Assembly: GCA_030604405.1 (NCBI GenBank)
Contig: JAUVVY010000003.1
Span: forward strand, 62,001-126,000
DNA from: a bacterium
Lineage (GTDB): Bacteria; Armatimonadota; Zipacnadia; Zipacnadales; UBA11051
Direction: 5' to 3'
Length of the DNA: 64,000 nucleotides
Within the stretch, counting starts at the first letter, position 1. Each line of letters begins with the position of its first letter. This document shows positions 12,731-16,510 of the stretch, piece after piece. Position numbers and translations under genes: made by a program. Under the pieces are notes generated by a model. That model ran no database searches, had not been told where the DNA came from, and was given only the letters and a program-made list of their open reading frames with translations.

Positions 12731-13777
12731 TTATTTGTGCGGGTTGGTAAAATGCTCAAACAGCACTGTAACGCAGTTTTCCAGCGCGGCAAGTGGCGAC
12801 ACTTCGTAGCCGTGCGTATTCTCGGTGGGAAAGCACAGACATGCCGGCCGTCCCACCAGCCCCGCTGCGGCACTGAGGCTGGCGTCACTGCCGAAGCTGC
12901 GTATCACCGCGCGCTGGCACTCGATATCTTGACGCTTGCCGGCGGCTATCAGTTCCCGCGACAGCGCCGGATCGTAGTGATACGAGCCATCCTTGAACAG
13001 CACTACCGGCTGCTCGTTCATCTCAGTCGGGTACTCCTCGGCCACTGGCCCTACTTCGATGGCGATGAAATCATTTGGCTGCAGCGTGTGGCTGATGTAC
13101 TTGCCGCCGGAGACTCCGCCCTCCTCGGCTGCGGTCGCCGCCACATACAGGTCATGCAACGGCGGGTTGTCATGGAACTGGCGGGCCAGCAGCAGCAGCA
13201 CAACCACCCCGGCCTTGTCATCCAGCCCATATCCGCCGACGTATTCATCGTGCAGATACATCGGCTGCTTGCGGCTGCGCGCCACGCAGGCCCTGTCGCC
13301 CACGCCAGCGCCGCGCTCGGCCAGCTCTTCGGCATTCAACTTACAATCCAGATACACCATATCCCATGTCAACAGTCCGGTCTTGGCCTTATGAATCCGG
13401 CTGGACAGGTCCGACGAATGTGTCGAGCCGATGTGCAGGATGCCCGGGATGACGTCATTTTCCGTAATCAGGTCGAACGGGCCCTCGCCGTATTTCGCCG
13501 GCCGTATCCCGCCGATCGGCTCCAGCCACATCTTCCCATCCTCATCTATCTTACGCACCACCAGCGAGTTCTCGTCCTTGTGGGCAGAGACTAATGCCGT
13601 CGGCCCGGCTTCGCGCCCGTCGAACTTGATGTAGATGTTGCCGTGCGGATCGTGGTGGACTTCGTCGGCGCACTGCCCCAGTTCCGCCCGCACGATCTCG
13701 TTCATCTCGTGCTCCCAGCCCCCGGGAGCGTGCGTCACCAGGACCTGATCGAGTAGAGTCTTCAGTTCTGCTCGCAT
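12731..13777 (-). CDS. M42-family aminopeptidase (glutamyl aminopeptidase/endoglucanase-like)
   Basis: The 348-residue cytoplasmic metallopeptidase has SAHKDE (first zinc His), GGYGLDDKAG (bridging Asp), AATAAEEGGVSGG (catalytic Glu pair), AIEVGPV and ENTHGYEV (last zinc His). M42 enzymes form large tetrahedral complexes that trim N-terminal residues from peptides; some were first misnamed cellulases. GAAAGG sits 8 bases before the start. Upstream is the third copy of the small WWxRLLG-coding repeat at 13869-13911. It is followed closely by the Gfo/Idh gene at 11711. Confidence 0.92.
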   Translation of the reverse strand: MRAELKTLLDQVLVTHAPGGWEHEMNEIVRAELGQCADEVHHDPHGNIYIKFDGREAGPTALVSAHKDENSLVVRKIDEDGKMWLEPIGGIRPAKYGEGPFDLITENDVIPGILHIGSTHSSDLSSRIHKAKTGLLTWDMVYLDCKLNAEELAERGAGVGDRACVARSRKQPMYLHDEYVGGYGLDDKAGVVVLLLLARQFHDNPPLHDLYVAATAAEEGGVSGGKYISHTLQPNDFIAIEVGPVAEEYPTEMNEQPVVLFKDGSYHYDPALSRELIAAGKRQDIECQRAVIRSFGSDASLSAAAGLVGRPACLCFPTENTHGYEVSPLAALENCVTVLFEHFTNPHK

Positions 13778-13868
13778 CGCTATACCTTTCTGTGGCTATT
13801 GGCCCGGATTCCCCATATCAATCACCGAATTCAAGCAAGAAACGTACTCACCTGCCCCAGCATCCCTC

Positions 13869-13911
13869 CTTGCCCAACAGCCGGTGCCACCAGTGCCGCT
13901 TCTCTGGCGGG
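13869..13911 (-). repeat. 43-bp direct repeat encoding an EKRxWWxRLLGK tail, copy A
   Basis: Read on the minus strand it encodes PPEKRHWWHRLLGKE in a frame that is open for only a short distance and stops soon after. The 43 bases match 14509-14551 with about four differences. It lies between the 179-residue gene and the M42 gene. Confidence 0.7.
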
Positions 13912-13940
13912 TCATTGGACTGCTTCGCTGCCTGGCGGGG

Positions 13941-14480
13941 TCAGGCGTCGGGTATATAAAAAACGCCGAGCTCCTCGAAGATTACCTTGCCATTCTTATC
14001 CCTGCCTTTCCACGGGCCTTGCGGCGTATGGCGGGCGCTACGGATGCTGAGTGCCACATTTCCCTTCTCGTCGCAAATGTCAGCGCGAGATATCTCGAGT
14101 CCGAAAGCCACTTGGTAATGGAGCCCCATCATACCTAGCAATGCTTCAACAGCCTTCTGCTCGTGATCCTCAGGCGCCTTCTTCCTCTTCTCCTCCTGAC
14201 TCATTGCTTCTGCCCCCAGAAACTCATCGTGTGCTTGCGCCTGGAAGATTGTGTTGCCCTCCCCGCCACGGATAGTATGCGACACATCAATATCTATTTC
14301 AGTTAGCCTGCTTCTCCGATGGCGGTGGCTATAGATGCCGGGTCCCACTTTTCCCGTCGCGTCACAGATGTCAAGTGTCAGTATCTGCAGGTTCATTCCG
14401 GAGGTCGACTTGTTACAGTACCCGCACATAGCTATCAATGCGTCAACGGCCTCCCGTTCATAATCCTCAAGACTCTTCAT
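13941..14480 (-). CDS. Hypothetical protein made of two related repeats
   Basis: I do not recognise a family. The 179 residues contain an internal duplication. EDYEREAVDALIAMCGYC, followed by LDICDATGKVGPGIYS, is echoed by EDHEQKAVEALLGMMGLHY, followed by ADICDEKGNVALSIRS. A short linker of about 25 charged residues (MSQEEKRKKAPED) joins the halves. There is no signal peptide or membrane segment, so it is probably cytoplasmic. The start at 14480 has AAAGGGG about 9 bases upstream and lies inside the end of a short reading frame that encodes the WWQRLLGK tail, which suggests translational coupling. It follows a membrane protein gene and may work with it. Confidence 0.65.
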   Translation of the reverse strand: MKSLEDYEREAVDALIAMCGYCNKSTSGMNLQILTLDICDATGKVGPGIYSHRHRRSRLTEIDIDVSHTIRGGEGNTIFQAQAHDEFLGAEAMSQEEKRKKAPEDHEQKAVEALLGMMGLHYQVAFGLEISRADICDEKGNVALSIRSARHTPQGPWKGRDKNGKVIFEELGVFYIPDA

Positions 14481-14508
14481 GCCCGTCGCCCCTTTCAGTC
14501 TTTTTGGT

Positions 14509-14551
14509 CTTGCCCAACAGCCGCTGCCACCAGCGCCGCTTCTCTGGTGGG
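14509..14551 (-). repeat. 43-bp direct repeat encoding an EKRRWWQRLLGK tail, copy B
   Basis: Read on the minus strand it encodes APPEKRRWWQRLLGK and continues to TERGDGHEES before a stop that overlaps the start of the 179-residue gene. It is nearly identical to 13869-13911, 640 bases away. A more diverged relative, encoding EKARPWWQRLIGRE, lies at about 15398-15450. Confidence 0.7.
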
Positions 14552-14587
14552 GCTGGCAGCAGGGCCTTCGGCAGGTTGGCGCCCTGG

Positions 14588-15394
14588 CTACCCTGGACTA
14601 GGTTTTGCTTTATCCCAGTTGGTACACCATTGGTTGTCGTCGTCGTTCCAGAATACCTTAACGATACTGTGCCAACGCACGAAGTTCGAATCATACCATC
14701 GGAGTGTAAGTTCGTACATACGCCGGTCGTTCTTTGGTTCCAGCTCCGGGGCCGGGAAACAGAAAAAGCTGTGGCCTTTGTGGTACAAACACCGCTCGCG
14801 CCAAAGCTGTATCGCTTCTGGTCCGCTTGCCTTCCCAAGGTCCTTTGCGTCACCGCACTCTTCTTTCATGTGTTCGTAAGGCTGCCGCTCGCCGATCTCC
14901 TCCTTCTGGGGGGTGATATCCTTATACTGGTCCTCCATCCACTCGTCACTGACACTGGCGTCTATATTGACAGCCGGCCAATCACCCACGTTGACGAGGT
15001 CGAAGGTAAGCCATTTCGTACACGGACCATCACTGTCGGGCGAGAAAGACTTGATAGGTTCCAATATAAACAGGATAGCTTTACCTGCTAGTAATTGCGT
15101 CGCCTTGACCTGTTCTTTAGCGTGCCACGCATAACAAGCGGCAGTCACGAAAGCAAGCAGCAGGAATACCGCTTGCATCTGATCGGGCAACCATATTGCA
15201 GGCAAAACCAATATCCAGAACACGAACAGAACGGGCCCTATTTGGTCCACGATCGCTTCGAAATACCCCTCCTGCTCGGCAGTTTGGCTGAATTGTGTGA
15301 TAGAGTCTTCAATTGTTGTCATTAGACAAGCGTATCTCGCCATCAAATAAGCGGCAAGTAGGAGCAACGTCAAAACTACTGCTACCCAAACCAT
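14588..15394 (-). CDS. Membrane protein of unknown function
   Basis: The 268-residue product has an N-terminal transmembrane helix (MVWVAVVLTLLLLAAYL). Two more hydrophobic segments form a hairpin at about residues 50-90 (IGPVLFVFWILVLPAIWL and AVFLLLAFVTAACYAW). A soluble C-terminal part of about 160 residues has a likely beta-sandwich (WLTFDLVNVGDWPAVNI, YELTLRWYDSNFVRW). I recognise no named domain. The ATG at 15394 was chosen because GGGAGG lies 8 bases upstream. That site sits inside the end of a short frame coding the WWQRLIGRE tail. The gene pairs with the duplicated-repeat protein downstream. Confidence 0.65.
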   Translation of the reverse strand: MVWVAVVLTLLLLAAYLMARYACLMTTIEDSITQFSQTAEQEGYFEAIVDQIGPVLFVFWILVLPAIWLPDQMQAVFLLLAFVTAACYAWHAKEQVKATQLLAGKAILFILEPIKSFSPDSDGPCTKWLTFDLVNVGDWPAVNIDASVSDEWMEDQYKDITPQKEEIGERQPYEHMKEECGDAKDLGKASGPEAIQLWRERCLYHKGHSFFCFPAPELEPKNDRRMYELTLRWYDSNFVRWHSIVKVFWNDDDNQWCTNWDKAKPSPG

Positions 15395-15478
15395 CACTAT
15401 TCCCTCCCTATTAGCCGCTGCCACCACGGCCTTGCCTTCTCTGCGGCCTTCTCCGCCAGCGGTATGACAGATCCGGGA

Positions 15479-16510
15479 TTAGAGATCCACCGGCTCGCCC
15501 TTTTCAGCCGACTCCACCATCGCCACCAGCGCCTTCGTAATCATCAGGCCGTCGTGGCCGGTAATCAGCGGCTCCCGTCCAAGCAGCACCGAGTTGATGA
15601 AGTGCTTGATGGCCTGATTGACGAACCCGACCGGCTCGCCCATCACGTCGCCGGTCAAAATGCCCTTATTCAACTGCTTTCCGTTGGTGGCCAGCACGAA
15701 GTCGGGCAGGGCGGCGTCAATACTGACATAACCGTCCGTGCACACCAGCTCGAACTTCGAGTCCACAGGCGTCGGCATTGTCTCCGGCATGATCCAGCAG
15801 CTTTCGAAGTTGCCGACACAGCCATTTTCAAACTCCACGGTGGCCTGGTAGAAATCCGGGGTGTCAATGCCCATGCTTTTCAGCTTCACGCTGCGGCACA
15901 CCGCGTTGACGCGCTTGGCCTCCGACTTGAAGTACCACCGTGCGATGTCGTAGCGGTGGCATATCAGCCAGAACGGCAGGCGCGTCTCGCCGGACCATGA
16001 GAGCATCTGCGTGGGCACAAAGAGCGTGTTATTCAGCCGCGCGTAGCAGTACAGCGGGTCCCCCAGCTCTCCGGCGTCGAGGGCCTCTTTGGTCTGCGCG
16101 AATGAGTGCATCCAGCGGTTGCTCCAGTTGACCATCAGCGTCTTTCCGGCGGCTTTCTGCGCGGCCACAATCGCCTCGGCGTCCTCGACGGATGTTGCCA
16201 TCGGCTTTTCGACCAGCACGTGCTTGCCGGCGGTAAATGCGTCCTCGCAGACCTGCCGGTGCAGGTGGTCGGGCAGCACTACTGACACCGCCTCGATCTC
16301 GTCGAGGGCCAGCAGGTCGTGGTAATCCTCGAACACGTCACGGGCGGCGTACTTGGCCGCCATCGTCCGGGCGCGCGGCACATTCAAGTCGGCTATCGCG
16401 ATCAGCTTGGCATTGTTGGCCGCCGAGACGCATTTGATGTGATTTTCGCCGTGGGTTCCGGCACCGATGACACCATACTTCAGCGTACCGTCGGCATATA
16501 CTTTGGCCAT
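15479..16510 (-). CDS. Gfo/Idh/MocA-family oxidoreductase (second)
   Basis: This 343-residue NAD(P)-dependent dehydrogenase has the Rossmann motif GVIGAGTHGENHI, the catalytic HVLVEKPMATSV near residue 100, and the C-terminal substrate domain with CHRYDIARWYF. It shares the ESCW and CCWVVPE/CWIMPE-type segment with the dehydrogenase at 11711, so the two are related paralogues, perhaps for different sugar acids or inositols. It is transcribed away from miaB, with a 212-base divergent gap that should hold both promoters. The substrate is unknown. Confidence 0.92.
   Translation of the reverse strand: MAKVYADGTLKYGVIGAGTHGENHIKCVSAANNAKLIAIADLNVPRARTMAAKYAARDVFEDYHDLLALDEIEAVSVVLPDHLHRQVCEDAFTAGKHVLVEKPMATSVEDAEAIVAAQKAAGKTLMVNWSNRWMHSFAQTKEALDAGELGDPLYCYARLNNTLFVPTQMLSWSGETRLPFWLICHRYDIARWYFKSEAKRVNAVCRSVKLKSMGIDTPDFYQATVEFENGCVGNFESCWIMPETMPTPVDSKFELVCTDGYVSIDAALPDFVLATNGKQLNKGILTGDVMGEPVGFVNQAIKHFINSVLLGREPLITGHDGLMITKALVAMVESAEKGEPVDL

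Follow-up and report, generated by a model that had tools for sequence, protein, structure and literature searches.

The window analysed here (64,000 nt of contig JAUVVY010000003.1) contains three short repeats, R1–R3, within a segment of 1.7 kb that separates two conserved genes and carries two poorly conserved ones, A and B. On the reading that we prefer, to which a probability of about 0.5 is given, the repeats are C-terminal tails, two of them cut from A and B and the third left by a gene that has been lost. The features of the region are as follows, with positions counted from the first letter of the window.

12731–13777, minus strand: right neighbour, M42 aminopeptidase gene
13778–15478, no strand assigned: insertion of 1.7 kb (1,701 nt) between the Gfo/Idh and M42 genes, containing the repeats, A and B
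13869–13911, minus strand: R1, tail repeat, peptide SNDPPEKRHWWHRLLGKEGCWGR and then a stop; frame of gene B, behind the TGA of B
13941–14480, minus strand: gene B, 179 aa, internally repeated by eye, without convincing relative
14509–14551, minus strand: R2, tail repeat, peptide PPEKRRWWQRLLGK; +1 frame of gene A
14588–15394, minus strand: gene A, 268 aa, with a hydrophobic N-terminus and distantly related genes in a few genomes
15401–15450, minus strand: R3, diverged tail repeat, peptide EKAAEKARPWWQRLIGRE and then a stop; +1 frame of the Gfo/Idh gene
15479–16510, minus strand: left neighbour, Gfo/Idh/MocA oxidoreductase gene, conserved C-terminus intact

The insertion at the Gfo/Idh–M42 junction

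The same gap is short in all three congeneric loci examined, at 21 nt (G001), 19 nt (G003) and 45 nt (G004), and contains neither a gene nor a tail; for a fourth congener (G002) the search gave only a distant paralogue of the Gfo/Idh gene. Set against these short gaps, the 1,701 nt found here represent an insertion that, of the genomes examined, this one alone has. The junction was compared at 10 loci of other genomes (L006–L014 and L053), further orthologues and fragments being left out. Six of these loci (G001, G003, G004, G005, G016 and G020) have a gap of 19–45 nt. The remaining four (G006, G010, G015 and G019) have other DNA between the Gfo/Idh and M42 genes; in the translations inspected, it lacks the tail. 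The junction has thus accepted other DNA elsewhere too, and the Gfo/Idh–M42 gap is a permissive junction across genomes of the order. The gap DNA at L008, L010, L011 and L014 includes, in G006, a HELGH frame and, in G010 and G019, frames that resemble lipoproteins.

The M42 gene (12734–13777) is 72.5% identical at the DNA level to its counterpart in G001, whereas the flanking genes reach 92.7% and 88.1%, and its last 100–200 nt are about 85% identical. Recombination may have replaced one copy, either here or in G001. That M42 arrived with the insertion was considered on account of this unusual identity and was rejected, as the G001 copy could equally be the odd one.

Position, frame and coding character of the repeats

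R1 and R2 form a direct repeat of 43 nt with 93% DNA identity, and R3 shares 74% identity with R1 over 31 nt. All three lie on the same strand, with spacings of 640 and 894 nt. The pattern TGGTGGNNNMGNYTNNTNGG (WWxR..G) has three matches in the 4.37 Mb genome, all of them at this locus, and its backwards version, used as a control, has two. When one mismatch is allowed the window contains four matches compared with a shuffle mean of 0.32, and at least four were obtained in 0 of 100 shuffles. A 36-nt pattern of R1 and R2, with up to three mismatches, gave no copies beyond these two in 41 genomes of the order.

Each repeat stands in a close relation to its neighbouring genes. A single in-frame TGA separates R1 from gene B, the open frame of R2 runs to 14467 and so overlaps the start of gene B by 14 nt, and the R3 stop is located 2 nt before the ATG of gene A (15394). 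A GGGAGG within the last codons of R3 forms a plausible ribosome site for gene A. The first-pass annotation had described three peptide-coding repeats at these places, two of them ending at the next gene, and in this it is borne out, the ribosome site that it gave to one of them being plausible. Its statement that none has a clear start of its own applies to R1 and R3, whose open frames contain no ATG, GTG or TTG upstream of WW, but the R2 frame contains three, all within gene A. Similarly, R2 and R3 are out of frame with the preceding gene, as it had claimed for every repeat, but R1 is in the frame of B. It had further suggested that the repeats may be translated as tiny modules to which the downstream gene is coupled, for which the ends of R3 and R2 at the start of that gene would speak; because two of the three repeats have no start codon this is left unsupported, and with R1 also ending 70 nt short of the next ATG it is considered most improbable.

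A codon-use model was derived from 28 long frames in the window; on average, true frames score 0.29 bits/codon with it and wrong frames −0.44. R2 reaches 0.21 bits/codon in the tail frame, and none of 882 wrong-frame chunks of long frames was both open and at or above 0.2 bits/codon. In sliding windows the best codon-use frame changes from that of A to +1 exactly at the stop of A. The tail-frame scores of R1 (−0.03) and R3 (−0.12 bits/codon) are intermediate between those of coding and non-coding DNA, and one of the other frames of R3 has a slightly higher score than the tail frame (0.00 vs −0.12 bits/codon). The 24-nt cores of R2 and R3 differ by five changes, with equal preservation of the peptide in 0.3% of random draws (66–80% in the two other frames), a figure that flatters the peptide constraint since the block was chosen after the motif was seen. 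The corresponding value for the cores of R1 and R3 is 0.9%, and those of R1 and R2 differ at a single position and give no signal of peptide constraint. Where R2 and R3 differ in length they do so, judged by eye, by multiples of three. The tails do not stand out in hydrophobic moment (percentile 49–87).

The switch of frame at exactly the stop of A, and the position of R1 in frame behind a single TGA, would also be expected if A and B were whole, tailed genes in which one false base shifts A and another creates the TGA of B. The genome is a draft of 96 contigs, but such an assembly or sequencing error needs two separate mistakes within 700 nt while the flanking genes are intact, and it leaves R3 unexplained, as R3 follows an intact conserved gene end; this explanation is judged unlikely. 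The frames of R1 and R2, and the two tails without a start of their own, likewise fit a programmed recoding in which a +1 shift at the TAG of A and readthrough of the TGA of B place the same tail on part of the products. The stop contexts are three different ones, the Gfo/Idh gene has the same end in relatives without a tail, and R1 shows no peptide constraint, all of which make recoding very unlikely.

The motif of the tails is also found at protein ends in other organisms. A scan of 84,980 genomes gave eight loci with EKxxWWQRL[LF]G, in six of which the motif lies 0–5 residues before the stop. RNase E accounts for two of the six C-terminal carriers and a DUF1694 protein for one; two more are similar proteins of Elusimicrobia that belong to no Pfam family, and the last is a short euryarchaeal frame. 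The motif is internal at the remaining two loci, which encode one kind of protein. The viral contigs searched did not contain it. The recurrence of a tail-like end at the C-termini of unrelated proteins favours the repeats being gene ends, although a common origin does not follow from it. Alphaproteobacterial RNase E proteins at L047 and L049 terminate exactly in EKKSWWQRLLG. Closer to the window, G006, which belongs to the same family, contains a 131-aa frame that ends in PPKPQKKGWWQRLFGRD behind an RNase E/G-like frame (named by eye), and relatives of this tail gene in the order amount to weak matches alone outside G006. The pattern TGGTGGCANMGNYTNNTNGG is matched in 19 of 291 genomes of the phylum, and none of the 17 contexts outside G000 and G006 clearly shows a gene that terminates in this tail; the closest case (L033) is a 103-aa open frame, a candidate gene, in which the match stands 13 residues ahead of the stop.

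Taken together, the frame switch at the stop of A, the preserved peptide of R2 and R3 and the C-terminal position of the motif in six of eight matches indicate that the repeats were probably coding. The low codon scores of R1 and R3, and the pair R1/R2 with its lack of constraint, would suit a non-coding repeat in which the peptide is an accident. The codon score of R2, the constraint on the R2/R3 peptide and the occurrence of the motif at C-termini elsewhere all speak against this. In addition, the repeats match no RNA family in Rfam at E ≤ 1, no hairpin common to all copies was seen, and their folding is not unusual (z-scores of 1.4, 1.6 and 1.4 for R1, −0.5 and 0.7 for R2, and −1.45 and −0.3 for R3). 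A non-coding repeat is therefore regarded as quite improbable.

Genes A and B and the possible origin of the tails

A two-row profile of gene A finds matches in 6 of the 291 genomes of the phylum, its own included. The relatives extend about 20 aa past the position of the A stop; those in G008, G018 and G036 match the C-terminal part of gene A and end without the repeat tail. Gene B is matched in three of the 291 genomes at E ≤ 0.01, namely its own and two with weak matches, one of which has an internal stop. No A- or B-like protein bearing the tail was found in the 291 genomes. Searches for gene A in phages and for gene B in plasmids and viral contigs returned none, and scans of both against Defence, NCBIfam, PHROG and Pfam gave nothing convincing. 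Structure models of the two proteins alone are poor, with a mean pLDDT of 45 for A and 36 for B.

Several further details of these genes were observed. Gene B (13941–14480) resembles, by eye, two tandem copies of one domain, marked by EDYEREAVDALI.. and EDHEQKAVEALL.. respectively. In G018 and G008 (L017 and L021) the relative of gene A is followed immediately by a frame that resembles, by eye, a DNA methyltransferase. G037, G038 and another place in G018 share a different N-terminal membrane part, which contains MRRYRD..WWTTIL.

If the repeats are detached tails, the 1.7 kb segment would consist of poorly conserved genes inserted into a conserved operon, and R1–R3 would be the 3′ coding ends of genes belonging to the insertion. 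R2 would be the former end of gene A, detached by a +1 shift at its TAG, and R1 the former end of gene B, now located behind its TGA. R3 would be the leftover of an otherwise vanished gene that formerly preceded A. The copies may share one origin, a short 3′ end having been duplicated or recombined. In life the tail may have formed a cationic, tryptophan-rich C-terminal end, perhaps in contact with the membrane, although this membrane role is a guess. At present the tails are probably mere spacer DNA, with R3 also providing the putative ribosome site for A.

We infer from the arrangement of the locus that A and B once bore tails and that a third gene was lost, as we do the way in which the 3′ end was copied and the role of the tail. 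The absence of the insertion from G001, G003 and G004 and the continuation of the A relatives past the position of its stop support the detached tails; against them, the relatives of A are without this tail, and A and B may simply end at their own stops. The pattern is probably debris of gene ends. The suggestion in the first-pass annotation that the repeats are C-terminal remnants is thus upheld in part, by the codon use of R2, the preserved R2/R3 peptide and the placing of the motif, but the lost, repeatedly duplicated whole gene that it proposed was not found in the relatives examined, and neither was a full-length gene with this tail in the same arrangement.

The cassette array that it also mentioned survives as a general picture only, its integron version having failed. 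In a gain of cassettes, whether site-specific or driven by homology, genes would enter at the repeat and each leave one more copy, in the manner of elements that enter at the 3′ ends of genes. The presence of n + 1 repeats for n genes (three and two), all on one strand, the poor conservation of both A and B, and the likeness of R1 and R2 beside an older R3 are in keeping with it. On the other side, no recombinase was seen by eye within the insertion, the nearest tyrosine recombinase found lies about 73 kb away on the contig, R1 and R2 have no further copies in the 41 genomes of the order, and the attC version fails, which leaves cassette gain improbable. A short tail-coding 3′ end acting as a landing site, at which successive genes enter and each copy the tail, so that it is added by shift or readthrough to unrelated newcomers, is scarcely credible.

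On the reading as detached tails, the locus shows a conserved operon junction taking up new genes and leaving coding scraps. Apart from one puzzling detail this is the usual turnover of genomes, and its interest is modest unless the repeat is an entry site or translation of the tails continues. Should the repeat be an entry point, it would offer a small system in which the gain of genes at 3′ ends can be tested; as matters stand, it is chiefly a warning against taking such tails for genes.

Comparison with known systems

Integron arrays without an integrase (CALIN) share with this locus short genes on one strand with a repeat after each, and GTTGGGC in R1 and R2 fits the GTTRRRY core, R3 having AATAGGG; GTTRRRY occurs 59 times in the window. 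CALIN arrays lack an integrase by definition. As described in PMC3053210, attC sites have an inverse core RYYYAAC 57–141 nt from GTTRRRY with a palindrome between them. A search of the whole window for the two cores 47–140 nt apart listed 25889 and 44945, and none at the repeats. Six recombinases of the genome, from six of its eight PF00589 places (all but the two weakest), scored 62–142 bits with the integron integrase model TIGR02249 compared with a cut-off of 265. Unlike a CALIN, therefore, the repeats have no RYYYAAC partner and no unusual folding, and the genome has no integron integrase above the cut-off among those scanned; attC sites were rejected despite the GTTGGGC in two copies.

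The tails presumably resemble the membrane-targeting sequence of MinD in being short, cationic and hydrophobic C-terminal ends, a likeness in the pattern of residues. They differ from this C-terminal helix, as it is presented in PMC6803595, in being detached from their genes and in having a hydrophobic moment that is not outstanding.

Gene remnants in conserved operons provide the third comparison. There, too, genes of poor conservation and 3′ fragments stand between two conserved genes and are absent in close relatives, as the segment is at three of three congeneric loci examined. Coding-like stretches with a broken frame or no start are also present here, R2 through its codon use and frame switch and R1 and R3 through their missing starts, and an intact homologue of the fragment was not found among the 291 genomes of the phylum. 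Unlike such remnants, the fragments at this locus all copy a single 3′ end, which follows each of three genes once.
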